The notes below the pieces were generated by a model. The model did no database searches and was not told where the DNA came from. It saw only the letters and a list, made by a program, of their open reading frames with translations. DNA of 64,000 nucleotides, from NCBI GenBank assembly GCA_907163375.1, contig CAJQUW010001872.1, positions 371,001 through 435,000 of the forward strand, in the 5' to 3' direction. This stretch comes from Prostheceraeus crozeri. Taxonomy: Eukaryota; Platyhelminthes; Polycladida; Euryleptidae. Below, piece by piece: positions 726 to 17,906 of the stretch. The number at the start of each line of letters is the position of its first letter. Position 1 is the first letter of the stretch. The translations under genes and the position numbers were made by a program.

Positions 726-1385
726 AGTAGTAAGAAAACGGCGAACACTCGACCGGCGCCCCCCCTCTGGAACGAGAGAGTGTCGTGGTCGGCCGCCGTG
801 GTGCTTCGAGTCTGACTCCCCCCCTCTGGAACGACAGAGTGTCGTGGTGTGCCGGCCAAGTGAGTCCGAAAGGTTCGCTGACGTCCCCCCCTCTGGAACG
901 ACAGTGTGTCGTGGTGGACTTGGGCGACCGCCAGGTTTTTACTTGAGGCTATAGTGTGTGATGATTTTCGAAAAAACGACAGAGTTGGAATTTTGGTCGT
1001 TTTGGGCTCTAGCGCCAAAACGAAGCATCGGATGGGAAAACGGACGCCAGATTCGGATTCAGCGTGAAATTCTGCATCGGTATGGTGAATTTGAAGTCAA
1101 TCGGAGAGAACAAGTTTCGCTGACGTCCCCCCCCCCGGCACCGAGCTTCCAACTTTGCTTCTAGTGGACGGATTTTGTCGTGCAATAGCTCGTTTGAAAG
1201 CTAAGAGTGAGACAAATTCACTGAAAGAATCGGCTTGTTCATATCTGTCTTCGTTTAGATGTGAGACACCATTTAAGATTTTGGGAGATTGTCGAAAAAC
1301 GACAGAGTTAGAATTTGGGACGTTTTGGGCTGTAGCTTCAAAACGAAGCATCGGATGGTAAACGGAGGCCAGATTTGTAATCAGC
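726..1385 (+). repeat. Left terminal inverted repeat of inner Polinton
   Basis: This segment matches the reverse complement of about 19270-19705. The left copy is about 230 bp longer because a block at about 890-1120, flanked by copies of TTCGCTGACGTCCCCCC, is present only here. Within the outer part a motif CTCTGGAACGACAGAGTGTC recurs three times (about 770, 830 and 890), each preceded by a run of C and containing a hyphenated palindrome ACGACA/TGTCGT. The inner part repeats AACGAAGCATCGGATGG at about 1020 and 1340. Open frames inside this repeat are not credible genes. Confidence 0.9.
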
Positions 1386-1398
1386 TTGATGTTATTGT

Positions 1399-1447
1399 CC
1401 AATGAGCATCATCATCCAATGAGAATCAGGCATTTCTATATAAATAG
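1399..1447 (+). promoter_or_regulatory. Left-arm promoter: two CCAAT boxes and TATA box
   Basis: CCAAT occurs at 1399-1403 and 1416-1420, and TATATAAATAG at 1437-1447. Transcription would be expected to begin about 25-30 bp downstream, near 1470, and give a leader exon of roughly 70 nt ending in the ATG at 1537-1539. It lies just inside the left terminal repeat and mirrors the right-arm promoter at 18978. Confidence 0.7.
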
Positions 1448-1536
1448 CGAGCCTTCCACAGTGAGAATCATTCCATCGTTGAATCGCACGAGTGACGGAC
1501 GCATATTTTCTCTCTCTATTCTATTATCCAACTAAA

Positions 1537-1765
1537 ATGGTAAGTCGCTACTTTCCTCCCTCTCCTCCCTTGAACGTAAACTTAATACAATCTTTTTCAT
1601 TTTCAGGCATCTACTCCATCTGCTGCACTAGTAGGACAAAATGGCGGTCAAACGTTACAAGGTTCGCTACGGTCAGATCATCTACAACTGAGGCCAGTGG
1701 AAGAAACAACCAAGGTACATAATCCTACACCGCTACAGCGTAAATTTAAACAAGTCTTGCGTTAA
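1537..1765 (+). CDS. Small spliced early protein (53 aa) with a start-codon-only exon
   Basis: The ATG at 1537-1539 is followed at once by a consensus donor GTAAGT. A pyrimidine-rich tract and CAG acceptor end the intron at 1606 (67 bp). Exon 2 (1607-1763) continues in frame, beginning Ala-Ser-Thr-Pro, to a TAA at 1763-1765. The product is basic and Gln/Leu-rich with no domain I recognise. The first coding exon contains only the start codon, the same layout as in the polymerase gene at the other end of the element. The gene may be a real small protein or one of several alternative products of a shared leader, since another acceptor lies at 2505. Function unknown. Confidence 0.55.
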
Positions 1766-1795
1766 GACGATCATAGCGTAGTACTCCAAACGGGA

Positions 1796-2311
1796 ATGCT
1801 CCCTTCCACGGATGTCAAGATAATGCGCAATCAGTATGGGGACTACATACTGATCCCCGTGAGTCCGTACATTCGCCACCAACTTGATATTATTGAGCAG
1901 TACGTGACATTAAATATGGACATTCCTACTCCTCTTGCTCAAGAGTGGAAGGCGAGAGATGACAAGGATACTCCCTATAGAAAGATTTGGGATGGTAATC
2001 ACATTTGCCTACCGGTATCACATTGGTGTAGTTATTATAAAAAGGATGGAGATCAATCAATACCCATCACATGTGATGAGCTCGGAGAAGGTACTTGGGA
2101 TATCCTTTTCAAAGTGAATGGGCTATATTATGGTCGACACAAGGATAATAAAATAGTCTCTCTCTCCATGCATATGGAATCCATCCTATATATTCCAAAA
2201 CCACCCAACGTAGATGACATAATTGATCAAATCCTTAACAGCAGTGGTACGAAGCGCAAGTCGGAGAAGAATGCTGCATCAAAACGCAAATCAAAGAATG
2301 AGAATTGCTAA
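1796..2311 (+). CDS. Unknown left-arm Polinton protein (171 aa)
   Basis: An open frame beginning ATG CTC CCT TCC, 171 residues long. The centre contains aromatic-rich strands (for example HWCSYYKK and NGLYYGRHKDNK), suggesting a compact beta-rich fold. The last 25 residues are Lys/Arg/Ser-rich (GTKRKSEKNAASKRKSK), which looks like a nuclear localisation signal or nucleic-acid-binding tail. The stop overlaps the start region of the following RING-like gene. I do not recognise a family. By position it belongs to the early, nonstructural group between the left promoter and the virion genes. A DNA-binding or regulatory role is only a guess from the basic tail. Confidence 0.6.
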   Translation: MLPSTDVKIMRNQYGDYILIPVSPYIRHQLDIIEQYVTLNMDIPTPLAQEWKARDDKDTPYRKIWDGNHICLPVSHWCSYYKKDGDQSIPITCDELGEGTWDILFKVNGLYYGRHKDNKIVSLSMHMESILYIPKPPNVDDIIDQILNSSGTKRKSEKNAASKRKSKNENC

Positions 2312-2471
2312 TCCTTTCCTAACTCTACCCTATGACAATTCGCTTATGTGCTTTGAGTGTCGTAGACGTGGTCTTATTAGATACATTTTACTTCTTCGTT
2401 GCCATCATATCATTTGTGTATTTTGTCGTGAAAAGCATCGATGTAATTCTTCATTTTGTAATATGTTATAG
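2298..2471 (+). CDS. Small RING-like zinc-binding protein
   Basis: A frame of 57 residues starting at ATG 2298, overlapping the end of the preceding gene by 14 bp. It holds Cys-X2-Cys (CFEC), then about 12 residues later Cys-His-His with Cys-X2-Cys (LRCHHIICVFC), and two more Cys downstream. This is the spacing of a minimal RING or related zinc-binding fold. RING proteins usually act as E3 ubiquitin ligases and are common accessory genes of large DNA viruses. The upstream part of the frame back to 2223 overlaps the neighbour and is probably not translated. A second RING-like gene lies at 3550. Confidence 0.5.
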   Translation: MRIANPFLTLPYDNSLMCFECRRRGLIRYILLLRCHHIICVFCREKHRCNSSFCNML

Positions 2472-2505
2472 AACGTTTCCTTAGATGTGTAAATTTCCGT
2501 TTTAG

Positions 2506-3054
2506 GCTTCTATCATCATTTTTATCGATTGTGAGGGTGAACCTGTACAGGAGCTCAGTGCTATTGCTATGAACAATTGGACATATCAGATTGTTAGTGT
2601 CTATCATCAACATGCCAACTGCGATCCCAATGTTGATCAATGGGCGAGAAAACACATTCATGGACTTAATCTGAAATATTTGCAAGACTACGGCTTTTCT
2701 TGTGAGACTGCTCTTCTTATTGACTTTAAACGATGGTTAGCTGCTTTCAATGTTATACGCATCTTTTGTAATAATCCTGGTAAGGAGAGGAAAGTATTTC
2801 CCAATCTAATCATTGATGATATTTTGCTCCCGCCTTGGGATAGTAGAGTGAATCAACATTATCATGAAGTCACGAAACGTTTTAAGGATTTGTGTGTTCC
2901 TATTTTGTCTGTTCGTTGTAGTAGCTACGTTCATAACCAATGCTTCTTTCCTCCTTACCTCAACACTGCCAAAGTCCTGTATGGTTATCATTGCTCGCTG
3001 TATGATAGTTACCAGCTGTATCTATTTTATCTCTTTCAAACCATTGATTTATAA
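2506..3054 (+). CDS. DEDDh exonuclease-like protein, probably spliced from an upstream leader
   Basis: The frame has no good ATG at its real start but begins right after a splice acceptor (TTTTAG, ending 2505) with Ala-Ser-Ile-Ile-Ile. This resembles the Ala-Ser start after the 1606 acceptor, so the ATG exon at 1537 can supply the start in the correct phase. FIDCEGEP near the N-terminus fits the Asp-X-Glu of exonuclease motif I. A mid region with VIRIFCNNPGKE may be motif II. HCSLYDSYQLYLF near the C-terminus fits motif III (His-X4-Asp). Together these suggest a DnaQ/DEDDh 3'-5' exonuclease fold of about 180 residues. The motif II Asp is unclear, so activity is uncertain. An internal ATG at 2569 would remove motif I. 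Confidence 0.5.
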   Translation, partial: ASIIIFIDCEGEPVQELSAIAMNNWTYQIVSVYHQHANCDPNVDQWARKHIHGLNLKYLQDYGFSCETALLIDFKRWLAAFNVIRIFCNNPGKERKVFPNLIIDDILLPPWDSRVNQHYHEVTKRFKDLCVPILSVRCSSYVHNQCFFPPYLNTAKVLYGYHCSLYDSYQLYLFYLFQTIDL

Positions 3055-3138
3055 TGCATGCTTGTTACCATTATTCAATAAATGTTACTATGAGAAGAGT
3101 TGTTTTCATGCAACGGATGGGTTAGATGAAGGGCGATC

Positions 3139-3547
3139 ATGTCTTTCTCAAACGATTGCGGAACATTACATTTTCATAGGCAAAGTTTAAAAAGAGCTGT
3201 TCAAGATTATGTGATAAATTTTCATAAAGATGAGACCGACATGGAAGCAGTGGTCGATGATGCTAGCACTCTATTTCTAGAGTTAATGAATACATTCTCT
3301 GATAGCATTATCATGGCGCGATTAGTTACGAAAATTAAGTTTAGTCATTTTGGAAAGGAAGAGGTGGAAAGTCGCTCTTTCCATTTTGCTTCTTATTCAA
3401 TGGAAGTGGTAGATCACCCCCAAGAATTTTTTAAAAGACATGATAAAAATTGCTGAACGTCTTAACGCATTTAACCATCATGGTAGCAGTCTAGTGATTG
3501 AAGCGAATACAGATATTCACATTCAACTTTCTATAAAGAAAAATTGA
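3139..3547 (+). pseudogene. Stand-alone copy of the Polinton polymerase N-terminal domain, frameshifted
   Basis: The frame starting ATG 3139 runs to a TGA at about 3456, but coding character continues in another frame from about 3430 to a TGA at 3545-3547. The shift coincides with a T6/A4 run near 3428-3436. The C-terminal part (ERLNAFNHHGSS) resembles a segment of this element's own polymerase N-terminus (DKFNERDSGLVF). Both follow a region of alternating charged strands. I therefore see this as a separate small gene carrying the domain that elsewhere precedes the polymerase exonuclease region. Function is unknown; a DNA- or protein-binding accessory role in replication is inference. Confidence 0.45.
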
Positions 3548-3549
3548 AA

Positions 3550-3873
3550 ATGCAGTGGTACTTGATTGTAGCACAACTGGTTTTCGAGCTATGTCTGCTC
3601 ACTCTCGAAGTATATTCCTTCTTTACATGCGTCTATTATTTAGAAAAGGCTAGCAAATTCATATCTTTAAGAAGACTTGCTATAGACATCAGTAACGGTG
3701 AAACTATGTGTTGTGATGTATGTAAGCGAAAGGATGGAAATGAAATGCGCATCTTCAAGAGATGTAAGCATGCTTTTTGTCAACGCTGTTTCATACGTAA
3801 TTGCATTCAACTTTGCCAATGTAGCCACTGTGATATTGCTCATTTCGAGTGTCACTTATGCCGCAATAGTTAG
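3550..3873 (+). CDS. Membrane-anchored RING finger protein (108 aa)
   Basis: Starts at ATG 3550. Residues 3-30 form a strongly hydrophobic segment (WYLIVAQLVFELCLLTLEV and on), a likely signal anchor or transmembrane helix. The C-terminal half holds a canonical C3HC4-like ligand series: CDVC, then about 14 residues later CKHAFCQRC, then CQCSHC and CHLC. This predicts a membrane-bound E3 ubiquitin ligase, a gene type used by DNA viruses to alter host membrane proteins. That role is inference here. It is distinct from the smaller soluble RING-like gene at 2298. Confidence 0.7.
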   Translation: MQWYLIVAQLVFELCLLTLEVYSFFTCVYYLEKASKFISLRRLAIDISNGETMCCDVCKRKDGNEMRIFKRCKHAFCQRCFIRNCIQLCQCSHCDIAHFECHLCRNS

Positions 3874-3924
3874 TACCTATGCAAATGTGGTAAAGACAGG
3901 TTTTAGCAAAGACTAACACGAAAA

Positions 3925-4275
3925 ATGGCGAAACGTAAAAGTTAAAACTCTTCAAAGTTTTCTTCAGCCATTCAAGCTCTCCGACGAATGAAAGCAAATC
4001 AGCGATACAATGCTATACGACATGCTAACGATAAATTCATTCGTGAAATTATTTCTCATGTCAGAAAGTTGAGGACGAAGAAATTAGCACCAAAACAACG
4101 AAAGTTACTTAAGCGATATGCCACAAAATTGCGTTTCATCTCCAATCCTAAAGTCACCCTTCAAAGAAAGAGGAAAACTCTAACACAAAAGGGCGGTTTC
4201 CTTTCAGCAATACTTCCAATGATAGCTCCTGCCGTGGGCAACCTATTGGGTAATATCTTTGGCTCTAAGCGTTAA
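3925..4275 (+). pseudogene. Adenovirus pX/mu-like core protein, early in-frame stop
   Basis: A very basic protein (many Lys and Arg over its first 75 residues) ends in a hydrophobic block containing KGGFLSAILPMIAPAVG. That basic-then-GGFL-hydrophobic layout is the signature of adenovirus/adintovirus pX (mu) condensing proteins, which bind packaged DNA. An ATG at 3925 opens MAKRKS but is followed by TAA at 3943-3945 in the same frame. The frame then stays open through a second ATG at 3988. Translation could start at 3988 and lose about 21 residues, so the gene may still yield a product. It stands between the RING gene and the packaging ATPase. Confidence 0.6.
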
Positions 4276-4306
4276 TTATGCAAATGTTGAATCTCAAAGT
4301 AATAAA

Positions 4307-4708
4307 ATGGATTTCAGACTTCAATGTGATAAAGTTCTGACTGTATCAGGTCCATCTCATGCAGGTAAAACTGTTTTCACGCTGAATTTATTGGATAAAA
4401 GAAGGGAGTTGTTTAAGGAACCTATCAATCGAGTGATTTGGTGTTATGGTATTTATCAACCGTCGCTGTTTCAGGAATTGCACAGTCGCAACTTTATTCG
4501 ACATGAAGGAATTATTCCAGTGGATAAACTTCAGTCTAATGATGTTGTTGTATTGGATGATTTATTAAAAGAAAGTAAGAATTCCAAAGATGTTACAGAT
4601 ATGTTCACTCGCGCAGCACATCATAAAAGGTGCTTTATCATCTATATTATCTCTTTATTATCTCTTATATTATCATCTATTTTATTCACGACCCTCCTAT
4701 GTAAGTAG
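4307..4708 (+). pseudogene. Packaging ATPase (FtsK/HerA-like), C-terminally truncated
   Basis: Starting from ATG 4307, Walker A is GPSHAGKT (residues 15-22) and Walker B is DVVVLDDLL (79-87), followed by DMFTRAAHHKR. This matches the A32-type genome-packaging ATPases of Polintons, which drive DNA into capsids. Right after HHKR, where the family continues with a conserved sensor stretch and about 80-100 more residues, the sequence turns into low-complexity TAT/CTC repeats (4630-4685) coding a hydrophobic nonsense tail. The next virion gene begins immediately. The C-terminal third therefore seems deleted or replaced, and the enzyme is probably inactive. Confidence 0.8.
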
Positions 4709-5117
4709 TGGAGGACAAATTTACAGCGGCGCTCGCCGCCAACGTGGAGGTAGCATACTTGGTGCACTGAAATCTGTTGTAGCACCTCTCATATCCAATG
4801 TCGGTAGATCTTTAAAACGAAATGTTTTAAGTAATGCCGTTGGCTTTGCTGGTGATGTTGCTAGTGATCTTTCCAGAGGTAGAAGTTTTAAGAGCAGTTA
4901 GTTGAATCGTGGGAAGGGACGCGGTTTGAAAACATTGAAACAGACCTTTGCTGGTGTTACTCAAGGAAAGAAATCACCTAAACGAATGAATAAAGGAAAG
5001 AGGAAACATCGCGGATCTGGTAAGGTGCGATCTTAAGTCAAAAGGCATTCACGCAAACGTCGCAGAGGTTCTAATCATTCATCAGGCGCTAAACGACGAC
5101 GCTGCTATAACTTCTAA
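4680..5117 (+). pseudogene. Basic minor virion protein (adenovirus pVI/core-like) with two in-frame stops
   Basis: One frame runs from about 4680 to TAA 5115-5117, two bases before the capsid start, but is broken by TAG at 4899-4901 and TAA at 5034-5036. It opens with SSGGQIYSGARRQRGG, then a Gly/Ala amphipathic segment (GALKSVVAPLISNVG), typical of the Polinton gene located just before the capsid gene. It ends with highly basic clusters (KRMNKGKRKHR, KRHSRKRRR). This composition suits a membrane-lytic and DNA-binding internal virion protein. No ATG is visible at the left end, where the ATPase remnant collapses into low-complexity DNA. Confidence 0.6.
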
Positions 5118-5119
5118 TC

Positions 5120-6397
5120 ATGGAGTGTAAAACTTCTGGTTTTTGTTTGTTTGATCAACAAGCCATACAGACAGATATTCTTAGTTCAAGTATTGTAGAT
5201 TATCATCCTCGAACAGCTGAGAATGCTGGCCCCATTGAATTTGTTATTCCTGGTGGTAGTGATGACTACATAGATTTGAGTTATGCGATGCTTGATTTGA
5301 GGTTTAGAATTCAGCAAGCAGATGGAACTGCTATTGACGATGCACATAAAGTTGGACTGAACAATTTACCATTGACTACATTACTTCGCGATGTTTCTCT
5401 AACGATTGGAGAGCAGCAGGTGGAAGGTGGTCAAAGCGATTATCCCTATAAATCATATTTCAATCATGTATCACAGTTTCATCCAGCAGCACAAAAAAGT
5501 CATATGGAAGCCATGGGATGGTACAGAGATGAAGCAGGAAAATTTGATGTTGAAACAAACAGTGGCTTTGTAAAGCGATCTGCTATGATTAAAGATAGTA
5601 AAGTATGTCGGCTATATGGTCCGCTGAATTTAGACTTCTTTAGACAGTCAAAGTTTTTACTCTGTAATACCAGCATGCGACTCAAGCTGACATTGAATAA
5701 GCCTGAATTTGCGCTGAATGCATTTGCTAAAGTTGACAATTTTAGAATTCATGTGGAAGATATTGCACTTTACATTCGTCGAGTAGTACCGAATCCAAGT
5801 GTCATTAGAGGGCATGCTGAAGGTCTTAACCGCCAAAATGCCATTTACCCCGTTCAGCATACAAAGCTTCTCACCTTTACAATTCCGAAAGATCAAAAGA
5901 GTTTCATGAAAGATGGCCTCTTTCCATCGGAAGCACCGAAGCTCCTCATGGTGGCAATGGTTGAAAATGATGCATTTAATGGTAGTATAAAGAAGAATCC
6001 TTTCAATTTTAAACACAATCAGTTAAGTGAAATTGCTTTACGTGTAAATGGTGTGAGTCATCCTGGTCCACCCTACAAACCAGATTTTGCTTCGGATCAA
6101 TTTATGCGCAGTTATGTTGATTTTATGGATGTCTTTGGCTTTTACAATACGGATGACACCAACGGACTGACTATGAAAGAGTTTAAGAGTGGATATACTA
6201 TTTATGCATTTGATTTGACTGCTGACAGCAATATTAGTGCACCCTATCGTCAAGCGAACGTGCCTCATAATATTCGTTTGGATTTGACGTTCGAAAGAAC
6301 ACTATCTGAGACGATCAATGTATTAATTTATGCAGTCTTCGATTCAAATATTGAAATTACAAAGTATCGTGACGTGATTCTTCAGTATAATCGTTAA
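5120..6397 (+). CDS. Major capsid protein (double jelly-roll type), intact
   Basis: 425 residues from ATG 5120. Features typical of Polinton/adintovirus major capsid proteins are an N-terminal arm followed by ENAGPIEFVIPGGSDDYIDL, an early DVSLTIGEQQVEGG, a central LNLDFFRQSKFLL, and a C-terminal TLSETINVLIYAVFDS-NIEI close. This protein would assemble the icosahedral shell. It is fully open, unlike neighbouring minor virion genes. Its TAA stop (6395-6397) overlaps the ATG of the protease by one base. Assignment is by these conserved blocks and by position between minor core protein and protease. Confidence 0.88.
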   Translation: MECKTSGFCLFDQQAIQTDILSSSIVDYHPRTAENAGPIEFVIPGGSDDYIDLSYAMLDLRFRIQQADGTAIDDAHKVGLNNLPLTTLLRDVSLTIGEQQVEGGQSDYPYKSYFNHVSQFHPAAQKSHMEAMGWYRDEAGKFDVETNSGFVKRSAMIKDSKVCRLYGPLNLDFFRQSKFLLCNTSMRLKLTLNKPEFALNAFAKVDNFRIHVEDIALYIRRVVPNPSVIRGHAEGLNRQNAIYPVQHTKLLTFTIPKDQKSFMKDGLFPSEAPKLLMVAMVENDAFNGSIKKNPFNFKHNQLSEIALRVNGVSHPGPPYKPDFASDQFMRSYVDFMDVFGFYNTDDTNGLTMKEFKSGYTIYAFDLTADSNISAPYRQANVPHNIRLDLTFERTLSETINVLIYAVFDSNIEITKYRDVILQYNR

Positions 6398-6858
6398 TGA
6401 GTTGGTTGACTGCTGACGATATTAAGACTAAAGTGCAGCGTAATGCAGACGAAGCGACGTTGAAAGCTTTCGATAATGTCTATTCGATCGATACCTTACC
6501 ACCTGCAGTAAATCACTATCCCATCTTTATTGTGCTAAACACTCATTCGCAGAATTTAGGCGGTGAGCATTGGAAAGCGATCTTTATTGGAGAAGACCGA
6601 CGTGGTGAACTATTTGACTCTCTTGCTCAACCTCCAAATATACCAACACAGCAGTGGTTGAGAAAACATACGCGTCAATATCAGCGAAATGAACGCATAC
6701 TACAACATCCACTTTCATCAACGTGTGGTGCTTTTGTACTGTACTTCATCTTAAAACGTTTACATGTATCTCGATTTGCATCTGTTATTCAAAACTTTTC
6801 ATGTAATCCATCTTCTAATGAAAAAATGATTTGTAAGTTCTATCATGATTTGAAATAA
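6397..6858 (+). CDS. Adenain-like cysteine maturation protease (C5/ULP1 clan)
   Basis: 153 residues. The catalytic triad is visible: His58 in GGEHWKAIF, Asp74 in GELFDSLAQP and Cys110 in HPLSSTCGAFVLYF, with Gln103 a candidate for the oxyanion hole. This is the pattern of adenovirus protease and its Polinton homologues, which cleave virion precursor proteins. Length is close to a minimal family member. Start and capsid stop overlap (TAATG), so expression is probably linked to the capsid message. The TAA stop lies within the AATAAA at 6854-6859. The gene converges with the TBP-like gene on the other strand. Confidence 0.92.
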   Translation: MSWLTADDIKTKVQRNADEATLKAFDNVYSIDTLPPAVNHYPIFIVLNTHSQNLGGEHWKAIFIGEDRRGELFDSLAQPPNIPTQQWLRKHTRQYQRNERILQHPLSSTCGAFVLYFILKRLHVSRFASVIQNFSCNPSSNEKMICKFYHDLK

Positions 6859-6889
6859 AAACATCATGTTGGAAAAATTGTTTTTTATT
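6854..6889. terminator. Convergent polyadenylation signals overlapping both stop codons
   Basis: AATAAA at 6854-6859 on the plus strand contains the protease stop codon. TTTATT at 6884-6889 (AATAAA on the minus strand) contains the stop of the TBP-like gene. The two transcription units meet tail to tail with about 26 bp between the stops. Confidence 0.7.
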
Positions 6890-7751
6890 TTACAATCCGC
6901 TGGGTACGTACATACTCGATGAGATAGTCTAGGATCACATTTGCTTGTACATGAGATTTTAGTCCAGTAATGATCACTTTACTATTATGAAAGATTGCCA
7001 CATGCACAGGTAACCAACAACTAATGAGAGCTGCAGGAAAAAGTTCGGGTTCATAACACAAATTGTAACTGCTGGTACGAATCTTCAAAAATGATACACT
7101 TTCACTCAATTGAGTAGAGATCACCATATTGTCCACAGTCAGATTCGACATCACACACCTCTCCCTCTTCCATATCCGACGTAGTAGTCTTTGTAGCTCT
7201 AAGCGCATTGACTTCGCCGATGAATGAGAAAGGGCGCCGAGAATCTGTACAGTCCCATTTGGGAAGAGTTGAAGATTCCGTGAATTGTTCATCTTCACCA
7301 CTAACATTTGAGGACGGCCCGGGTAATACTTGCTGTTTGGAAGCTGTTGGTGTAATGTTGTGAGATCGATTTTGGTGTAGATTCTGAAGCGACGGAGAAT
7401 GTTGACGATGGTGTAGCGATGGCGCTTCATGATGAAAGAATGAGTAAATTGAGCGATGTACCTTCCTTTTATATTTTCCAAACTACCTTGATGAAATGTG
7501 AAGTTAGTATGAAGTTGGGAATGATAGAGTTGAATTCGCCGATTGTTGACGCGCAACCAGATGCGATTTCCAATATGTGAATGTCTTTTCATATAGAAGT
7601 ATTTCAAGTCCTTCATGATATGATGTAGAGATTGAAAATGACGATAAGATAAAGCAAACTCTCTTCTCACATTTCCAGTTGAATCTTTGAAATAGACGTT
7701 TCGATCATGATCCGTTTCAATACGTTGTAGGGAATCTAATTTCCAACTCAT
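6885..7751 (-). CDS. TATA-binding-protein-like protein with an extra N-terminal domain
   Basis: 288 residues, fully open. Residues about 113-193 and 203-282 form two repeats with the TBP layout. Repeat 1 has YTIVNILRR, then IDLTTL, KYYPGRPQMLVVKM and LFPNGTVQILGA. Repeat 2 has NMVIST, then CYEPELFPAALI and AIFHNSKVIITGLKS. These match the duplicated saddle of eukaryotic TBP (Y-x-P-E-L-F-P, F-x-S/N-G-K/T-V-x-x-T-G-A/L), which binds TATA DNA and recruits RNA polymerase. Residues 1-110 form a separate domain repeated in the neighbouring gene at 7774; phrases like FALSYRHFQSLHHIMKDL weakly recall PC4/p15 coactivators. A virus-encoded transcription factor acting on the element's own TATA promoters is inferred. 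TBP is not among the usual Polinton gene set as I know it. Confidence 0.82.
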   Translation of the reverse strand: MSWKLDSLQRIETDHDRNVYFKDSTGNVRREFALSYRHFQSLHHIMKDLKYFYMKRHSHIGNRIWLRVNNRRIQLYHSQLHTNFTFHQGSLENIKGRYIAQFTHSFIMKRHRYTIVNILRRFRIYTKIDLTTLHQQLPNSKYYPGRPQMLVVKMNNSRNLQLFPNGTVQILGALSHSSAKSMRLELQRLLRRIWKRERCVMSNLTVDNMVISTQLSESVSFLKIRTSSYNLCYEPELFPAALISCWLPVHVAIFHNSKVIITGLKSHVQANVILDYLIEYVRTQRIVK

Positions 7752-7773
7752 GATGTGTGGTAGTCATGTCTGA

Positions 7774-8130
7774 TTAAGATTTGCATAGTAGGGCGATGAA
7801 CTCACGACGAATAAATGTCATGATGGAGCGATGTATATATCTTCTATACTTCTCCCAATTGTATTTGCGAAATGAGAAACAGTTTGCGGAATGAGAATGG
7901 TAGATTTGAATTTCATTTCTGTAATGTTTAAGCCAAACTTGATCACCCAAGGAGATGAATCTTAATGTTTCAAAATATTCCAAATCCCTCATGATATCAT
8001 TGAGGTTGACAAATTGTCGCCATGTTAATGTAATACCTCTTGATGTATGACCATGAGAATTTTTGAAATGCACGTTTCCATCACGATCAACTCTGATATA
8101 TTGTAGAGAGTCCAAAATCCAAGTCTTCAT
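7774..8130 (-). CDS. Stand-alone N-terminal-domain paralogue of the TBP-like protein (118 aa)
   Basis: The sequence aligns end to end with residues 1-110 of the adjacent TBP-like protein: WILDSLQYIRVDRDGNVHF against WKLDSLQRIETDHDRNVYF, then GDQVWLK against GNRIWLR and IQIYHS against IQLYHS. It stops where the TBP repeats would start. A tandem duplication followed by loss of the TBP half is the simplest explanation, or a domain kept as a regulator or partner. ITLTWRQFVNLNDIM resembles the PC4/p15 helix that follows its beta-sheet, but the match is weak. The 22 bp gap to the downstream gene suggests shared transcription with the TBP-like gene. Confidence 0.65.
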   Translation of the reverse strand: MKTWILDSLQYIRVDRDGNVHFKNSHGHTSRGITLTWRQFVNLNDIMRDLEYFETLRFISLGDQVWLKHYRNEIQIYHSHSANCFSFRKYNWEKYRRYIHRSIMTFIRREFIALLCKS

Positions 8131-8165
8131 GATGTTATGGAAAGCCGCAGATCATCAATATAAAA
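8131..8165. promoter_or_regulatory. 35 bp divergent intergenic region with TATAAAA abutting the penton ATG
   Basis: The two starts (8130 minus, 8166 plus) are only 35 bp apart. TATAAAA at 8159-8165 lies directly against the plus-strand ATG, too close for a normal TATA box of that gene, so either transcription starts further upstream inside the minus-strand gene or the motif serves another purpose. Confidence 0.4.
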
Positions 8166-9554
8166 ATGTCGTTTTATCATATTTTGCTTAGCAATGCGGC
8201 TACAAAGAGATTTGCTAGTAATCGAGCCGCACTCTTTTCTACTCCCATTGATCATACACAACAGCTAAATGGAAATTAGGAAGTTGGTGTCACTCAACTT
8301 ATTTATAGCAACTGTGTCTATACTTTTGATCATGAGGTGATGACTACTAATATGAGACGTACAGCTGCTTACCAATGTGAAAAGGGGTGCCGAGTATACA
8401 TTCCACAGTGGCCAAAGAAAGATCTCTTATCATGTAAAAAGTTTATATATGATTTCCTGAATAAAGCGTGTAAACATATTGTCCAATTTACTCCGCACAA
8501 TGATGATCATAATTATGTACATCATGTAGTTGAGAAGGATTGGATTGTTGGTTTAAGTCCAAGTTTAAGAAAGGATTTAGGTTACCTCGCTAGCGCTTTA
8601 ACAAGCTATGATAATTATAACGTTAATTACCACCCAAGTGGTCATAAACAGTTAATATATCGAGAGGAAGCTTATTATGTAGATCTTATTCCAAAAAATG
8701 AGAAGACGTTGGTGAAGAAGATTGTGATTAAGCCAAGAAAGACAAACATGACTCCTGAAACATTATTGAAGAAATTTAATTATCTCCTTCGAGTTGATGG
8801 TAAACAAGTGGCTTATATCAAATCATCTAATCATATTGCAATAAGTAAATTAAATGATGATGATCTAGTATTAGTTTGTTCAAAAGATTTTCATCAGTTC
8901 TTACGACATCGTTCTGCAGCTGTTCATGGAAAATTTGATATGCAACATTTACCATGTGAAAGGTCAAATCAATTTGATACAGAATGGACCGTATCTTTAT
9001 ACAGAAAGTGTGTAGAGCCTTTCGGTGGTGTCTTACATGAAACAAGAGTGTTGATGCCTCGCATTATTACTTCAGTTAAATTGGTTGTAGATTATTTAAA
9101 TGAAGTGATTAATGAGCAACAAATTTCATTTTCTGAAAAAGAAGGTGTTTTGTCTCTCACTATAAGTGGAAAAGGTATTGAACTAATTATGGATAAAACT
9201 CTAATGGACATTTTGGGTTTTGATCAAAATATCTTTAAAAGTGGTACTGTAACCAAAGCTAGCGCAGACATGTCACTATCGCGTCGTATTAACTATTTTT
9301 AGATATATTCCAATATTGGTGAAGATGTACGTGTGGGAGATGTTGAAGCTCCATTGCTAGCAATGGTACCATACCAGCCAAAAAGCTGCAGTATTTTATC
9401 TGAGCATACTTTCAAGAAAGTGCATTATACAAAGCTGAAATCAAACTACATCCCACAAATTGATATTGCAATTTATGACGATGCTGGTGCGTTGATTCCT
9501 TTTCATAAAGATGCTGTGACAAGTATCACACTCCATTTCCGAATGAAGAGTTAA
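8166..9554 (+). pseudogene. Penton/minor capsid-like gene 1, two in-frame TAG stops
   Basis: One frame runs from ATG 8166 to TAA 9552-9554 (about 460 codons), broken by TAG at 8277-8279 and TAG at 9300-9302. The N-terminal block HILLSNAATKRF...IDHTQQLNG followed after the stop by EVGVTQLIYSN is the usual Polinton minor-capsid opening. The C-terminal block GEDVRVGDVEAPLLAMVPY, with later IAIYDDAGALIPF, is its usual ending. The first stop replaces the codon that is Trp at the matching place in the downstream paralogue. The second falls at a Tyr position there. Such proteins form capsid vertices. This copy would yield only fragments unless stops are read through. Confidence 0.82.
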
Positions 9555-9563
9555 TGCAAAAGT

Positions 9564-11114
9564 ATGCTAATATATTTTTCCAATGTGAATAATATGGAAA
9601 GTGAAAATAAGGACTCGTTTCTAATCTACTTACCCAGTAATGCTTCTATGAATAAATTTCCCAAAAATAAACCATCAGACTATCGAGTAGAATTTAATCG
9701 CCCACTACATTTAGAAGGTGAATGGGAGGTTGGCGTTTCTAGTATTTGCTATGATAGCAATATTCAGAATGTGAATGATTTGGAAGAAATGATATTGACT
9801 CCTCGCACCCATGATGGAATAACGATGAATAATGCATTCCAGTTCCCATACAATTTAACGTCAGATGGAAAGTGGAACTATGAATGGATTCAGATAAAAT
9901 CAGATTATTATGGTCCATTTGGGAATGAGAAAATTATTAAGGCATTCAACAGTGGTAATACTTCCATCATGAAGAATAAAAATCGGAAAGCTTATGAGTT
10001 TACTATCTATCATTGGAGTGGGAGACAGTTCCTTCGCTTTCATTCTTTTACTAAAAGTCTTACACTGTGGTTGGATAATGAATTCTATCCACATCTCGGT
10101 TTTGGTCATGGACTACATCTAACGTCAATTGCTACTGCAAATATTAAAAAAGTTTATTCAAATCGAATCAACAAATTTCATTATAGATTTAAAATATTTG
10201 ATGAAGATGTTGTAGAATGCGAAGAACGTATCATTTTGGAAAAGCGTGGTTTTCAACCTTTATCACTTATTGAGTTAGTAAAACGATGGAATGAGACTGT
10301 GGGTAAGAAGTATGGAGAGAAAATTATGGCGGACAAAAATAAGTTGGTTATTCAGAAATATAATGACAAACTTACATTTTATTTCTCTCCAACCTTGCGC
10401 CATTTTGTAAGACATTATACACCTATTATTGGAAGCGGTCTGGTGTATGCCTCTCATGAATATCACACTAAAGCTGATTCAGTTAATGATGAATGGTGGG
10501 TGGACATCTATGGCGATCGCATCAAGAAAATTTACCAGTCTTATGAAGAATCTAAAGTTGCTATCAATATAATGCCGCGTCTAAATCATACAGTTGAAAG
10601 CTTCATTCATGTAGTAAATCCTTATATACAACAGAAGTTGAAGCATGTGATGAAAAGTAAATATGATGTAAAGACACACCACATTTCGTTTTCAATTGAA
10701 AATCAACGCGTTGTTCTGAAACTGGGTGATGACATTCAATGTCAATTGAGTAAAAATTTGAAAAAACTCTTTGGTTTTTCAATGCTACAAACTGTGTTTA
10801 CTGCTGCGCATACGATTGGTATAGAAACACCAATGACACTTGATAAACATGAACAGCACCTTTACATTCAAAGTGATTTGATTCTACCTATTTCTGTTGG
10901 TGAGAAAAAAGAATGCATTTTACGTGATTTCATTCATGATAAAGACGCTTCACATGGAATAGCCGAGAAGATGTTTGAATCTATTTTCTATCATCCCGTC
11001 GTCAAACAAACTATACCCTCTATTGCTATCAAAATTACCAATGGTTTACGAGAGTGCATCCATGTGAAAGATACTAAATCCCTCGTAACTTTAGTGTTTC
11101 GGAAAACAAAGTGA
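9564..11114 (+). CDS. Penton/minor capsid-like gene 2 (516 aa), intact
   Basis: This intact paralogue starts nine bases after the stop of penton-like gene 1. The opening DSFLIYLPSNASMNKFP and LEGEWEVGVSSICYD fit the Polinton minor capsid/penton family. The C-terminal HLYIQSDLILPISVG and later IAIKITNG mirror the final domain of gene 1. It is longer than gene 1, mainly through a duplicated-looking middle (LNHTVESFIHVVNPYI against the equivalent segment in gene 1). A second ATG at 9594 is an alternative start. An AATAAA follows at 11138-11143. Two different vertex proteins, or one serving as a fibre base, is a possible reading. Confidence 0.78.
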   Translation: MLIYFSNVNNMESENKDSFLIYLPSNASMNKFPKNKPSDYRVEFNRPLHLEGEWEVGVSSICYDSNIQNVNDLEEMILTPRTHDGITMNNAFQFPYNLTSDGKWNYEWIQIKSDYYGPFGNEKIIKAFNSGNTSIMKNKNRKAYEFTIYHWSGRQFLRFHSFTKSLTLWLDNEFYPHLGFGHGLHLTSIATANIKKVYSNRINKFHYRFKIFDEDVVECEERIILEKRGFQPLSLIELVKRWNETVGKKYGEKIMADKNKLVIQKYNDKLTFYFSPTLRHFVRHYTPIIGSGLVYASHEYHTKADSVNDEWWVDIYGDRIKKIYQSYEESKVAINIMPRLNHTVESFIHVVNPYIQQKLKHVMKSKYDVKTHHISFSIENQRVVLKLGDDIQCQLSKNLKKLFGFSMLQTVFTAAHTIGIETPMTLDKHEQHLYIQSDLILPISVGEKKECILRDFIHDKDASHGIAEKMFESIFYHPVVKQTIPSIAIKITNGLRECIHVKDTKSLVTLVFRKTK

Positions 11115-11137
11115 AGTCATTGTGATATGTTTATTGA

Positions 11138-11143
11138 AATAAA
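11138..11143 (+). terminator. Polyadenylation signal AATAAA for the plus-strand virion genes
   Basis: AATAAA stands 24 bp after the stop of the second penton-like gene. The following 150 bp hold no gene before the polymerase 3' end on the other strand. Confidence 0.55.
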
Positions 11144-11297
11144 AATGTCTATGAAAAAGTCTTTTCACAGATACAGGGGGAATGGGCTGACTGTAGGCAT
11201 ATATTCACAAGGAAGAAACGATCTCATGCGATACATAAAACAGCAATGTTTATCTACAGAAATCAACATGAAAATACTAAGTTAAGGATGATTATGC

Positions 11298-14200
11298 TCA
11301 GACGTCTCCTGAATGTGGTAGCGTGAGTTTTATTCTTTTGGGTGGTGGTATGTTTGTGTCAGGATGTCCATGTGGAAGAGATATGTTATGTTCTAACCAG
11401 CACCTCTTATCCTCCCATGCTGAAAGCGCCCGTTTCCTAAAAGTATGAGTTTTGATCTCATGCGACTTAGATTTTAAGATTGTCATATTGACAAACGTTA
11501 TATTTTTATTTCTATAGGCTTTCCTGAAATTTTTATGTTTCATGTTAGAGACCAATGATCTTGATATGCCTTTAGCACGCTTAATACTATCGTCGCTATC
11601 CCTTAATTTCATACTGTACATTTTTGGTCGGAGGAGAATCATTTCATCTATTTCCTTCCCTGCCGTCTCATCCTTAAAGCAGCCAAGTTTTGCCTTATTT
11701 TTGATGGAGTATAGTGGGTGATCAGTAGGATAATTTGATGTATCAAAATATCTTTCTAAAGATTTTCCTACTTCATTGAAATTTAAATCTTTTTGAGTGG
11801 TAATACCTAAGAAGAAACTATCTGTATCACCACCCAACAAACGAACCTCTTTTACGAGAGGACATGGTTTTAGTATTTTATAAAAGAGTTGGTACATTTC
11901 AAGCTTAGAGTAATCTAGTACAGCTTGGCCAATATAGATGGGCTTGCACATCTCAACTTCAGATTTTATCATTTTAACACCTACAAGGTCCTCATCGATA
12001 ATGTCTCTATCGATGAATAGAGGTGATGAGGCCAATTTGTGATACTTTTGATCATCATTAACTAGTTTGTAGTTTACGCGCTTTCTAACATCCTCCATCG
12101 TCTTACCAAATAGACTATTATTCTTATACTTATAAAAATCTTTTTCAAAATTATTTTGGGCTAGTGCACGTTTCTGGCTGTTGCTATCAATATATGGTTT
12201 GAGGAAGGCTTTCTGTCTAAATTTAATAATGCGGTGAACTCTTTTTAAAATCATACCCATTTCTAAATAAAATTTTAAGATGCTAAAGTGGACTAGATAG
12301 TTTTCCTTATCATACTGGGTGAGTAAAAGTTTGCGGCAAGGCTTATAGTCGGGTTGACCGCATGATTCTAAATCTTTATGAAATTGTTTGATATTGATAT
12401 GAGTTGTTCATATCTTTGCTCACTTCACCTGATTCGGGTGCGAGTGGAAAATCTACGGTTTTATGTTTGATATTATTTGGATAGATTAGATCTATCTCAA
12501 AATAATATCCCCAATCACCTTCATCTGGAATTGCTAGTATATTAGAAGGGTTGGAGAGATGCTGAATTTCACTATCTAACCAGCTAAACTCAGAGTGAGG
12601 GAGTGGTTTGGATAGTGAACTACCATATAAATTATTTTGGTCATAATACTTCAGATGAGTCTGATCATCGCCTACTAATTTTGATTTTAACCTATGTTTA
12701 TTTACAAATGTGAGACCACCGCGAATTCCTCGCTCAAATAAATTATACATCTCTGGATCTTGTAAGAGATGTATGGTCTCACCAGTCATTTTAAAAGCAG
12801 ACTTAAATGACATGGCTGGCAGACTGACAAAGTGGACGGGATCTAACTTATCTTCTTCTAATGCCACTCGTCGAAACTCCTGAAATACATCAGCCAGCAA
12901 AAATACATCTAACTTAAGATAGGCAATCATATATTCGCCAAATGTATGGCAGTCAAATTTTATCCATGCATCTTGTGCATGATCATAATCTTCGGTCTTA
13001 CATTCTGCGCCGGTCAAATCATTTTTAAATTTATCTATTGGCGGAAGAGAAGTCTCGCCGAGTTTACTAATCGCATCAAAATATGCATATGGAAAGACTC
13101 CTTTCCGTGTGATGACTTCATCGGTTAGATTTGGATATTGTTTCTTAAGATTTTGTGTTAGTGGAAGAGACTTTAGATTTTGTACGAGAGAGGCCAGTGA
13201 TGCAGTCATAAATTGGTAGGAATCTAAAAATTTTATATCAAAATAGACCGTCGTATTTTCTTTCGTTTTATCGACAGGCACTTTTGCTGTCATGGCCATA
13301 AACTTCTTTCTCGTTTGTGCTATTACATCAAGCTTCCACTCTTTCATTTGACCTAAACCTCCTTTTATTATCATATGGCTGTCGTAGCCCTTGAAATTAT
13401 GGAAAATGATGGGTAATGTACGCCGTTTCATCCTAAGTGAAAAATTGCATTTTGAACATAGTGCGTTTCTAAATTTACCAGTGATGTGGTCATGGTCGTG
13501 CACTTTCTTAATCTTATAATCATCAAATGTTTTCCTACATTTGAGGCAAACGTTGCAGCTATCAAATTTTGCTTGATCATCTGCTGTCATATGCAATGAT
13601 CTGCGATAGAGTTCACCATCATACTTTTGTTGAAATTTTACAGCCAGTTCGAGGAATTGTAGGAATTGGTAAATACAATCCTCACCTTGCCAGACGTGCA
13701 TTTTATTTTTTCTATTTTGGAAATGGGCATGCCATACTTCATAGCAGGAAATGGCTGCTGCTCGATGGGTGTTATCATCGATATAGCATTCGATGTCAGC
13801 ATAGATGACACGAAGAGGACTTAGTTCATCACCATTCTCTCTATATGAAAACTCCTTATCTTTGGGCATGCGCTCCATTTGTAGTTTACCTCGCTTACAC
13901 CATTCGTAATGAGTTTCAAATTTATTTTTACTCCTAAAGTTCCGAATGCATCTGTCACAGTAATAAATCTCTGATGAGCTAGAATTTCTTAGGTGGTGGT
14001 ATAAGCGAGAAATTTTGGGAATACCGCAGTAGCGCCATTCCTCACTATCATCCTGTCTTACTAATAAAAGGTTGACAACGTGGTCATAACAACTCGAACG
14101 CGAGTTGTAGCGGACACCCTTCAATCCCTTTTCCCAAACATGGAGAACTATTTTGATGTTGTTCAATTTTTCAAATTTTTCTATATCTTTAATTTTCATA

Positions 14201-15282
14201 TCTTCACTATTGCAGTCATCAAACTTTAATTCATTCTCCCACTGTTGATACTTACTCTTACGGTATCGGCTATTCTGTACATCATTATAGTGGAGAATGG
14301 AGAGGACGGCATACTTAAAACATCGCGATTCGCAATCTACAGAAATGACTGCTGCTTTATTTTTTAAATTTTTCGGAAGTTTAAAGGAGCCTCGTCCAGA
14401 GTAGTTCTCTAATAAAGTGATTTTAATCATGGCGGTCTCAATACCATCAAAAACGAGTCCACTATCACGCTCGTTAAATTTATCTATGTTTAATTTTAAC
14501 CCTTGGATATGAAAATTTATCCAAGACTCGCAGTCTACAACTTCGGTTGCAGGAGAGGAGGGTATGTGAAACTCCAACGTCTCTACTATTTGACCAGTAT
14601 GGTGGTCGATTTTTACATATTTTATTTTGAGATAGATGAGCGCCTTCATTCTAAAATTGACTAAATTGTTGAAGAGCGCACCAATCAAAGATGAATTTCT
14701 ATGAAACCATTCTTCAAAGTCAGTAATGGTTTCTGAGGATTCCATCTGGTAGTTCCTCACTAAATTATTTATCGACACTTCAGAGAGTCGGATAGAGGAG
14801 GTGCTGTTAGTATAACTATCGTCACTGTGTGTATGTCGAAGTCTATGTGAAGATAGTTCAAAATGTGACTCAAAAGACTGAATGCATAAATCGCAAGAAA
14901 AGGAGACATCGTTAACAGAATCATCCCCACCTTCGGAGATTGATGCTGACTTAGGTCTACAAACACCTCGCTTGATGTGTCGGACGAGATCACGCTTCCT
15001 CGTGAAGATGTGCCCACAGTCAGCACATTCCCGATCGTTACATTCCCGCGACAATGTTGACATGAACTCGCTCGAGATGGGACTGGTATCACCTGAAAGA
15101 GAAATCATTCTTTCATCTCTTTTCAAGTCTCAGTGTATTGTTACAACCTACCTTGACTCAACAACTCTAAACTTTCCTCGAGAAGGGAGGGCGTTAGTGA
15201 TGAAGTTGATGCCTGAAATTGAGGAAGATGATATTAGCCACACGTTTGAGGGAGATGACTGATGAATTCCTTAACTTACCAT
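11298..15282 (-). pseudogene. Inner Polinton protein-primed DNA polymerase B, spliced, one frameshift
   Basis: The replicase of the inner element. Inferred exons are 15282-15280 (ATG only), 15212-15152, and 15092 onward, joined by 67 bp and 59 bp GT-AG introns in consistent phase; the ATG at 15126 lies inside intron 2. The N-terminus has two C2H2 fingers (CADCGHIFTRKRDLVRH; CDLCIQSFESHFELSSH). Exonuclease motifs are IYADIECYIDD, NFKGYDSHM and YLKLDVFLLADVF. Polymerase motif A is YYDQNNLYGSS, motif B includes KNNSLFGKTMEDVRKR and motif C is GGDTDSFF. The frame changes once near 12385-12410, separating motif A from motifs B and C. The family size is normal. One indel may be recent decay or an assembly error. 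Confidence 0.93.
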
Positions 15283-15530
15283 TTCAAAGAAATCAAGTTT
15301 AAGGTCTCAAATTTGGAATTCACGAGAGTGCAGTTCACTTGTACGCCTCAAATATAGAATTCGCTAGAGAACACTTTACTTACACGTCTCAAAGACAGAG
15401 TGAAATGACACGGATGTCACTTTACATATATACTTTCATATTCATCATTCATTGGCTGTTGATTTTGATTGGTTGCTTGTTTATACTTAAGAATTAGGAA
15501 ACATTTCAAAGTTGTTGTTCACAGTCAACA
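15283..15530. promoter_or_regulatory. Bidirectional promoter region between polymerase and the 15531 gene
   Basis: A 250 bp AT-rich spacer lies between divergent genes. On the plus strand TACATATATACTTTC (about 15423-15437) and an inverted CCAAT (GATTGG at about 15468) lie upstream of the 15531 frame. On the minus strand the same TATATATG can act as a TATA element. Short repeats of the form GGTCTCAAATTTGGAATTC / CGCCTCAAATATAGAATTC occur at about 15302-15370. Confidence 0.45.
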
Positions 15531-15980
15531 TTGGCAAGCCCTCCAAAAACACCGAACACAAAATTCTCTTCTCCATGCTCATCACCAAGGGCGCTCGTTG
15601 CACCAAACGCTCCAGCGAAGGGGAAGGTAGAGAAGGTGTACCGACTCGACAATATCAGAAAGTTGTCATTAGCAGCGGATGATGAAGAGGAGAGTGTATG
15701 TGAGAAGGAGTATCCCGACTTAACAGGCGTGAGGTGGAAATATCTGCAGTACGATACTGATGATGTGATGAAGATCACCAGCACCAAATTCCTCCACCAA
15801 TTATGGGAATGGTGCACCCCTAACTCCCAGCCACGAACTATGGCGGAGTGGGAGTATATCGACAAATTTAGGCTCGCGGTAGAAGAACGATTGAAGCAAG
15901 TGAACTGTTTTTGTTATCTATGTGAAGTCAGACTCTGGGACGATATTGACGATGAAGACCTTTTGAAATACATGCCATAA
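15531..15980 (+). CDS. Unknown acidic right-arm protein (about 149 aa), non-ATG start
   Basis: The frame opens with TTG at 15531 in the context CAACATTGGCAAGC, then Ala-Ser-Pro-Pro-Lys. An Ala-Ser start also follows the spliced ATG in three other genes of this element. Either a TTG start is used, or an ATG was lost through one inserted T. The N-terminal 40 residues are Pro/Ser/Ala-rich and look disordered. The rest is acidic and Trp/Tyr-rich (VRWKYLQYDTDDVM, LHQLWEWC), with CFCYLC near the end. No family recognised. AATAAA at 15979-15984 overlaps its stop. Divergent from the polymerase, it is probably an early gene. Confidence 0.55.
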   Translation: MASPPKTPNTKFSSPCSSPRALVAPNAPAKGKVEKVYRLDNIRKLSLAADDEEESVCEKEYPDLTGVRWKYLQYDTDDVMKITSTKFLHQLWEWCTPNSQPRTMAEWEYIDKFRLAVEERLKQVNCFCYLCEVRLWDDIDDEDLLKYMP

Positions 15981-15984
15981 TAAA

Positions 15985-16731
15985 TGTTTATTTCGTATTA
16001 TCTTTGCTTTCATACTGACTTACTTGAATGGGGCTTCAGTGGATGATTTAAGCATGTATACTTTTTCATTTGGAAATAGTAGCACACTTAGTTTAACTTG
16101 CAATTCTTATAACATTTCATATGGATGATAATGGTAGATGAAATAGTGTTAAATAAAATTAAGATAGCTTACACTTCTGATACAGGGATAGCAATCGACT
16201 GCGATCCATGTGTAAAGAGCTTGTTAGACTACGGAAGAGAGAAGTGTGTTATGTTGCGTGTGGCGCGTGAGTGTCCTCCCATTTCATTCCATACATCAAT
16301 TCATCTCATTGATAGAGACAGATAGAACTCATGGTTCTCATAACGTATGCAATGGATAGTTTATAAGGCAACCTTCGACAGCTGGCTAAATGTCGCCCTG
16401 GCGCGAATGCATACTACGTTGAGACAGAGGCAATCACTTGCAAACATGACGCAGAGAGGTTTAACAAGATTGACCATTGCCGAATGTCCCTTGCGGTATA
16501 CATAGCTACGGGTTTCACCGCCGCCCTTTACAGGAACGCCCGTCGAAAGGAAGTATTACACCGAACTTCATTTCCAACGTTCAAGTTGACTGATAGCAGA
16601 TTCAACTTAATGATAGTATTCGCCAGTCCGAAGACTGCCCAGGGCAAACCGCGTGGAGGTTCTATCATGTCTTGCCCCATGGTGGCCCTTAAGAGAGCCG
16701 GTGGTTCGTTCTCGGGGTGTGTGATAAGGAC
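15985..16731. other. Spacer between convergent right-arm genes
   Basis: No convincing gene. A 66-codon frame at 16125-16325 (plus) and a plus frame at 16484-16834, which is antisense to an exon, have no recognisable features. A minus-strand frame of about 53 codons from 16680 begins ATGGGGCAAGACATG and could be an alternative exon. TTTATT at 15988 could serve as polyadenylation signal for the minus-strand gene at 16732, giving it a long 3' untranslated region. Confidence 0.4.
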
Positions 16732-17898
16732 TCAGGCTTGCTGTTTCGACTGCGGCTCCGGCAAAGGGGCGGGTGGTCGCTTCTCTTGGATGTCTGTAAA
16801 GAAAGAAGTAGTGAGTTATCATCTTACATTTTAATTTAGTCATTTTTACTTACAGATCTTCTCGGACGCTTCCTCATAAAGGAAATTCGAGATCGAATCA
16901 CGATGATTGAAGGTGAAGTGGAGACACTCCACTCCTTTCTTCACCCGAGAGTAGCATTTCTCCCCTCTTCCACGCTCGTACAAGAGAGGAGTTTCTGCTA
17001 CTCTCCCCTTTCTAATAGGGATGTGCAGACGGCTGGAACGCACCCTTCGATCGCGATCCACCAGCTGCGCCGAACGGTGCAGCTCGTGGTTCGTCTGGAC
17101 AACCTTAGCCATCTGCACACGGAGTCTCCCCAATTCCTCCTTCAACCTTCGTATCTCCTTCTCCCTACTTTCTCTCTCTGCTAATAAAGCCTCTTCTCTG
17201 GCTTTCCCGTCGAGAGTCTTGAGCCTCTCCTGCTCGAACTCGCCATCCCGCTCGCTTAATCTCTCCTTCACCTTCTTCATCTCTCCGGCTACGTTCTTTA
17301 GGTCCTCATACTTTGCCTTGTATGAGAAGGCCTCCTCCTTCAACTTCTCCACCTCTTTCTTTAGTTTATCCCGTTCGGCTATCACCGGCGGACGCTTCAC
17401 AAAATTGCGACATTGTGTTGCAATTCCGCTCGCAGTCAGGGCTGTAGGGGTCTCGCGATCGAGGTCGACGTCCTCGATAGGTTGCGACTGTAGCTCTCCC
17501 TCCTCCTCCTCCTCACTATCGCTGCTGGACAGCGAGCTCTCGCTACTAAGCGAGGATACAGCGGCAATCGCTTCAATGGCGGATTGTAGCTCAGTGGTGA
17601 AGAGCGAACTCCGTTCTTGCTCGTTGGCGGATTGTAGCTCCAAAGAACGGAGCTCAGTGGCGAAGAGTGAACTCCGTTCTTCTTCGCCTACTTCGCCTGT
17701 TTGACACTCGCTGTGTTGTGAGTGCCAATCCTCCAACCGCTCACTTAAGCGACTGATTTTGTGGGCTCCGCAATAGTAGCGACCGACCCCTATCTGTTTC
17801 TTGCTAGTGCAAGCGTGCTTCTTGAAGGCGTCATCTCGGAATACCTTCCGGCATTGACACAGTTTGAAACTGGTCTTGACATTATTGTATTTCGGCAT
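16732..17898 (-). CDS. Zinc-finger and coiled-coil protein of the right arm, spliced
   Basis: Exon 1 codes 17898-16854, then a 60 bp intron (donor GTAAGT at 16853, acceptor TTTACAG ending 16794) leads to a short exon ending in TGA at 16734-16732; without splicing a stop comes two codons later. Residues about 12-70 contain Cys/His pairs (CQCRKVFRDDAFKKHAC, YYCGAHK, HSQHSEC) that may bind zinc. Residues 75-150 are Ser/Glu-rich, with a repeated ERSSLF-TELQS-type phrase. Residues 180-290 form a long heptad-rich coiled coil. The C-terminus is Arg-rich. GC content and codon use are visibly higher than in the virion genes. Driven by the right-arm promoter. No family recognised; it does not look like an integrase. 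Confidence 0.65.
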
Positions 17899-17906
17899 TT
17901 CTGAAG

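Follow-up and report, generated by a model that had tools for sequence, protein, structure and literature searches.

Current views place Polintons close to the root of many groups of eukaryotic DNA viruses and regard them as reliant on host transcription. TATA-binding proteins (TBPs) encoded by viruses are already known, and differ in the transcription partners that accompany them. Giant viruses and their kin encode, in genomes of dsDNA virus type, a protein with the two lobes of the TBP fold, usually together with a viral TFIIB; according to the available text of PMC7221094, two acids of the TBP C-lobe contact TFIIB and a basic cluster of the N-lobe serves regulators such as Mot1, and among viral TBPs the acids are variably retained (about 40% at one of them) and the N-lobe signature is lost. 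Chrysochromulina parva virus CpV-BQ1, a large algal virus and not a Polinton, has a TBP and two TFIIB genes of its own and is described as lacking its own RNA polymerase, its TBP being proposed to redirect the host enzyme (PMC12085832, available text). Mirusviruses, a large eukaryotic DNA virus group with genomes of hundreds of kb and a herpesvirus-like capsid module, which we liken to the present case by description only, carry a TBP in 59% of genomes (PMC10132985, available text). The herpesvirus late-gene TBP mimic, ORF24 of KSHV, has a TBP-like domain that flags the promoters of its virus for use by host Pol II (PMC12529657, available text).

A Polinton-type element would be a new setting for such a protein, with a putative role in transcription. 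No report of a TBP in a Polinton was found in the literature searched, consistent with the view of the initial annotation that this gene lies outside the known Polinton gene set; the search mostly covered papers outside subscription, and an earlier mention is possible. Papers that contain both Polinton and TBP terms concern, in their available text, algal viral elements, mirusviruses, a cited host gene, a giant virus and an algal virus, and the words TATA, TBP and PC4 are absent from PMC11071308, PMC11071296 and PMC10120064.

The element and its setting

The window, by which we mean the whole 64,000-nucleotide stretch of Prostheceraeus crozeri DNA that was analysed, contains the features collected in Table 1. 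Inverted repeats, defined ends and a flanking 6-bp duplication (TAAAAG, at 720-725 and 19706-19711) confirm that the TBP gene lies inside a Polinton-type element, as had been proposed. In these repeats and this duplication, in its PolB-type gene and its length of about 19 kb, and perhaps in an adenain-like protease to which matches under the cut-off point, the element resembles Polintons/Mavericks. It differs from them by its TBP and PUR-like genes, and an integrase was not detected in the scanned ORFs. The Pfam scan covered 18 element ORFs (17 of the 26 ORFs of at least 100 aa, together with 3946-4275), and among these it returned neither a retroviral-type integrase nor a TFIIB-like protein. 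The two inverted-repeat arms are unequal in length and have different inner repeats.

Table 1. Coordinates of the element and of its principal features within the window
Feature	Positions	Strand	Remarks
Polinton/Maverick-type element	726..19705	.	18,980 bp; ends AGTAGT inward; terminal inverted repeats
Left terminal inverted repeat	726..1385	+	inner end approximate
Probable major capsid protein	5120..6397	+	beside protease; by resemblance to Polinton capsid sequences
Probable adenain/Ulp1-like protease	6397..6858	+	Peptidase_C48 E 0.0012, Peptidase_C5 E 0.043, both under cut-off
TBP gene	6885..7430	-	181 aa, residues 108-288 of the ORF, starts at Met108, two TBP lobes
Gene A, PUR/PC4-like	7102..7751	-	N-terminal domain and tail in other frame over TBP gene; frameshifted here
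Second PUR/PC4-like gene	7774..8130	-	118 aa, P0002, without tail; paralogue of gene A domain
PolB-type polymerase gene	11298..15126	-	two frames (frameshift or intron); Endonuclease_7 E 1e-6
Right terminal inverted repeat	19281..19705	-	inner end approximate

The 425-aa ORF that we take, by resemblance, to be a probable Polinton capsid protein (5120-6397) had no match in Pfam or PDB sequence searches, and a packaging ATPase is likewise presumed, the AAA match of 4259-4708 having an E-value of 0.084. For the two ORFs of PolB, Pfam gave no direct match to a polymerase domain, the domains that it did return being endonuclease VII and, weakly, a zinc finger. In single comparisons, each of the two pieces of PolB aligned with a fragment flanking the element (E 1e-11 and 3e-6), and one flanking piece, 136-954, matches DNA_pol_B_2 above the cut-off (E 2.4e-6). 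Through transitive similarity only, the element carries a PolB-type polymerase. It is inserted in an older Polinton-like element, within that element's PolB gene, whose interrupted pieces lie at 130-720 and 19931-20278. Because gene A is frameshifted and PolB extends over two frames, the insertion looks decayed, and the TBP of this copy may therefore not be expressed.

Several other sequences in the window are recorded here in their own right. Within the element, a small basic ORF at 3946-4275 weakly resembles core protein X of adenoviruses (Adeno_PX E 0.0022, under the cut-off), and a long charged ORF near the right inverted repeat (16846-17898, minus strand) is coiled-coil-like by eye and without a family match. 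A hairpin at 21466-21843 has 112-nt arms that are 99% complementary across an 11-nt gap, and outer 82-nt arms that are 95% complementary. Flanking ORFs at 38003-38854, 52642-53406, 50192-50788 and 24413-25243 comprise DDE_Tnp_4-type and mariner-type transposases, a MADF-domain ORF and a retroelement endonuclease (under the cut-off).

The TATA-binding protein and its proposed function

The ORF list of the window gives a 288-aa frame at 6885-7751 on the minus strand. The Pfam TBP model (PF00352) matches it in two stretches that correspond to tandem lobes (E 1.3e-19; 70.2 bits against a cut-off of 22.9), matches the 181-aa product from Met108 at E 2.5e-20, and matches 13 of the 13 rows of alignment A2, in which the protein of the window is included; the NCBIfam TBP models match the 288-aa frame with a best E of 7.4e-19, all far below the model cut-offs. 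A phmmer search of the PDB at E<=1 returned 35 distinct sequences (best E 6.5e-12), 34 of which are named TBP or TFIID or contain TBP, while the remaining one, 4wzs_D, bears a locus name only and has an alignment letter-for-letter as that of 3oc3_C, which is named TFIID. The two-lobe matches span residues 109-271 at most, and one single-lobe match extends to residue 282. The AF2 model of the TBP part contains the two-fold saddle (pLDDT 96.7, pTM 0.87), a fold search of the PDB at E<=0.001 gave 44 matches that are all TBP chains or TBP fusions, and the best rows in both Foldseek and VIA are TBPs, identity to solved TBPs being 19-27%. By sequence and predicted structure, residues 108-288 are a complete two-lobed TATA-binding protein.

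On this point the initial annotation stands: Pfam, phmmer against the PDB, the AF2 model, Foldseek and VIA agree on a TBP homologue with a two-fold saddle, the two halves that it quoted (IDLTTL...NGTVQILGA and CYEPELFPA...NSKVIITGL) are the two lobes, and the structural comparison by which it could have been overturned produced a saddle and TBP fold matches. In BFVD, 38 matches at E<=0.001 have 8-21% identity to the TBP of the window, those with names being Heterosigma akashiwo virus 01, Terrestrivirus and the B263R homologue of an abalone asfa-like virus.

At E<=0.001 a profile search found 118 proteins, some of them TBPs of cellular type, and residues were counted in 56 aligned rows. Positions were anchored on alignments with PDB TBPs and carry yeast residue numbers; by our own mapping, we equate the regulator-patch positions with the N-lobe cluster of PMC7221094, and E186 and E188 with its C.L3.2 and C.L3.4. 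The available text of PMC12529657 prints the TFIIB-contact acids as E184 and E188. The acidic pair is kept in the family (the E186 equivalent is E in 55 rows and D in 1, the E188 equivalent E in 56/56), as are the DNA-intercalating phenylalanines equivalent to F116, F190 and F207 (F in 56/56) and the C-lobe equivalents of N159, V161 and T215 (53, 53 and 54 of 56 rows). The F99 equivalent in the N-lobe is proline in 55/55 non-gap rows, and the set of four phenylalanines is thus incomplete. Such a set is typical of TBPs and not strictly defining; TBPL1 has a tryptophan at an N-lobe TATA contact (PMC7221094, available text). Basic residues occur at the equivalents of K127, K133, R137, K138 and R141 in 0, 6, 2, 2 and 8 of 56 rows, and at that of K145 in 18/55. 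The basic patch for regulators therefore appears to be mostly lost in the family and only partly in the copy of the window, which retains K, R and R at the K133, R141 and K145 equivalents.

The kept TFIIB face and the N-lobe proline together distinguish this family from other viral TBPs. In giant viruses the acids are variable and the genome usually supplies its own TFIIB (PMC7221094, available text), whereas here both positions are acidic in 56/56 rows and no TFIIB was seen in the scanned ORFs; KSHV ORF24 has all four phenylalanines and, in the available text of PMC12529657, is without the TFIIB acids, whereas the present family has both acids and one phenylalanine changed to proline.

On balance, and with somewhat better than even confidence, we favor a role for this virus-type TBP as the element's own promoter-marking factor, one that would recruit host TFIIB and Pol II. 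It would bind element promoters, though with a preference that is somewhat modified, as the substituted position lies in the N-lobe and an altered N-lobe could prefer a sequence other than TATA; its C-lobe would dock host TFIIB and bring host RNA polymerase II to element genes, much as CpV-BQ1 is proposed to redirect the host enzyme (PMC12085832, available text); and, on weaker grounds, it would escape part of the control exerted by host regulators such as Mot1. Retention of the TFIIB-contact acids, read with the available text of PMC7221094, suggests that the factor works with host TFIIB and Pol II and substitutes for host TBP, and so refines the earlier proposal of an element-encoded promoter-recognition factor. 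This reading is drawn from two residues and a fold, and the ability of KSHV ORF24 to direct Pol II without the TFIIB acids counts against it (PMC12529657, available text). Escape from regulators is weakly indicated for the copy in the window because it retains K, R and R of the patch, and since viral TBPs generally lose this patch (PMC7221094, available text), its loss is not special to the family.

One part of the earlier proposal that is not supported is the evidence for targets, the element having been credited with clear TATA boxes. The motif TATAWAW is absent from the inverted-repeat stretches 726-1408 and 19236-19705, and upstream of 14 chosen element ORF starts one TATA box was found against 1.08 expected, an absence of enrichment that counts against promoter marking. 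The sole TATAWAW upstream of these starts, TATAAAAG, lies 43 bases before Met108 of the TBP, and inward of each repeat there are motifs that face inward (1437/1439 on the plus strand, 18678 and 18984 on the minus strand); these are suggestive only.

The same lack of enrichment at element ORFs is compatible with a competitor or decoy, whereby the TBP would engage TFIIB or promoters of the host and depress host transcription instead of driving element genes; TFIIB contacts are kept, and a kink phenylalanine that is proline in 55/55 rows could weaken productive TATA binding. We regard a decoy as unlikely, because the DNA face is otherwise conserved in its two asparagines (N in 49/49 and 53/56) and three remaining phenylalanines (56/56) and because ORF24 of KSHV, likewise a TBP mimic of viral origin, works for the late genes of its virus (PMC12529657, available text). 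A use mainly in replication or packaging of the element through DNA bending, and not in transcription, would likewise suit ORF upstream regions without TATA enrichment, as well as the ability of TBP to bend DNA and the PUR/PC4-like nature of its neighbors, but it seems quite unlikely given that TATAWAW is absent from the inverted repeats and that it leaves the conserved TFIIB face unexplained.

The overlapping PUR/PC4-like gene

The domain encoded by gene A has a predicted fold of PUR/PC4 type, a beta-beta-beta-beta-alpha unit that is present twice. The predicted fold of the TBP's neighbors is like that of Pur-alpha repeats I-II, PC4-Sub1 and Whirly, whereas none of the sequence matches to PUR/PC4 families is significant (best PDB E 0.061); the best Pfam match of the PUR-like proteins is to an unrelated family, under the cut-off (E 0.017), and the top Foldseek row is an unrelated dioxygenase (E 0.022).

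The 288-aa frame is a chimera, in which the residues before Met108 belong to upstream gene A. P0006 is identical to the protein of the window at 89/90 of the first 90 residues, and P0006, P0009 and P0012 (3/15 homologues) share this first part and then continue in another frame across the TBP gene. In the window the tail frame is still open (7102-7482), is identical to the P0006 tail at 120/124 residues, and covers about 60% of the TBP gene. Eleven proteins match gene A, namely five of 216-222 aa that carry the tail (P0127 and P0129 among them), four of 118-119 aa and two that are partial; thus all 5/5 relatives longer than 200 aa have the tail, and those of 118-119 aa resemble the 7774-8130 type. 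Among 12 relatives of the TBP, 5 start at or beside the internal methionine, the others having different extensions or truncated starts, and none has an in-frame PUR domain ahead of the TBP. Because P0006 and the long relatives continue in the tail frame, the native layout is most readily seen as two overlapping genes, and gene A, for which intact relatives exist, is frameshifted in the copy in the window. The initial annotation had described a single intact gene with a 288-residue product; this description fits the TBP part, which begins at Met108 (6885-7430), and fails for the longer frame, whose first part comes from the frameshifted gene A.

When the synonymous codons of the TBP ORF were permuted, the overlap frame stayed open for at least 108 codons in 2 of 20,000 trials, and in the third frame, used as a control, the longest run was reached in 25.8% of trials and is unremarkable. 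The overlap was also sought in relatives, among the 56 aligned TBP rows, 12 of which have at least 12 residues before the start methionine. In 8 of these 12, the upstream peptide can encode, out of frame, the conserved end of the PUR-like domain (each with z of 4.0-6.0 and 0/300 shuffles equally good), this being a best case over synonymous codons and not observed DNA, with the window among the positives by construction; in the other 4 of the 12 testable rows such coding is not possible. Six of the seven other positives sit in the tree described below, across four subclades, and P0022 lies outside it. These results argue strongly that the out-of-frame overlap of the gene A tail and the TBP gene is real coding.

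An alternative is a genuine PUR-TBP fusion of 288 aa as the functional product in this lineage, which would unite two nucleic-acid-binding parts in a frame that is open throughout. We disfavor a fusion and consider it very unlikely: P0006, so nearly identical over the first part, exits this frame into a tail that the window has kept open, every long relative of gene A does the same, and the TBP relatives either start near the internal methionine or carry other N-termini, none with a PUR domain in frame.

The PUR/PC4-like proteins of the overlapping and adjacent genes would take part in the same process as the TBP, with either melted promoter DNA or transcripts as their targets. It is a tentative proposal, to which we give rather less than even weight, that Polintons carry a compact, dual-coded initiation cassette, with the tail of one PUR/PC4-like protein encoded out of frame over the TBP gene, in which a TBP and two PUR/PC4-like proteins would form a minimal set to mark and open promoters by way of host TFIIB and Pol II, replacing host TBP. 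Such a cassette, if true, would represent an architecture midway between that of small viruses dependent on the host and that of giant viruses, which bring their own transcription apparatus. With its kept TFIIB face, in contrast to the viral TBPs described to date, where this face is variable, the family would offer a concrete route by which a small nuclear element directs host Pol II.

The TBP family and its origin

A rapidly built tree of 66 rows contains a branch (SH-aLRT 95) that separates 41 family rows from 25 others, which include one archaeal and one yeast-type reference. From cellular and archaeal TBPs (for example 7o4i_O and 2z8u_P; 19-27% identity), the family differs by the N-lobe phenylalanine and by its separate branch. 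Although hosts universally have TBP and genes are captured by large DNA elements, the recent acquisition of a host's TBP gene, or of a paralogue, as neutral cargo is most improbable given the low identity to solved TBPs, the long stem by which the family is set apart in the tree, and the out-of-frame coupling to a PUR-like gene in 8/12 testable members, the window included.

Full element context comes from this window only, homologues elsewhere being known as proteins, and by the overlap signature alone the family would be placed in Polintons elsewhere as well; no relative was confirmed in the viral contigs scanned. With this family, the question of where viral TBPs came from becomes testable, and nature supplies a variant of TBP in which a single kink site is altered. 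A second divergent TBP-like group, consisting of P0084, P0087, P0092, P0101, P0105 and P0123, branches beside the family (96*; some branches are long), and P0104, a divergent TBP-like protein from a contig of ~4.96 Mb, falls outside the family in the tree.
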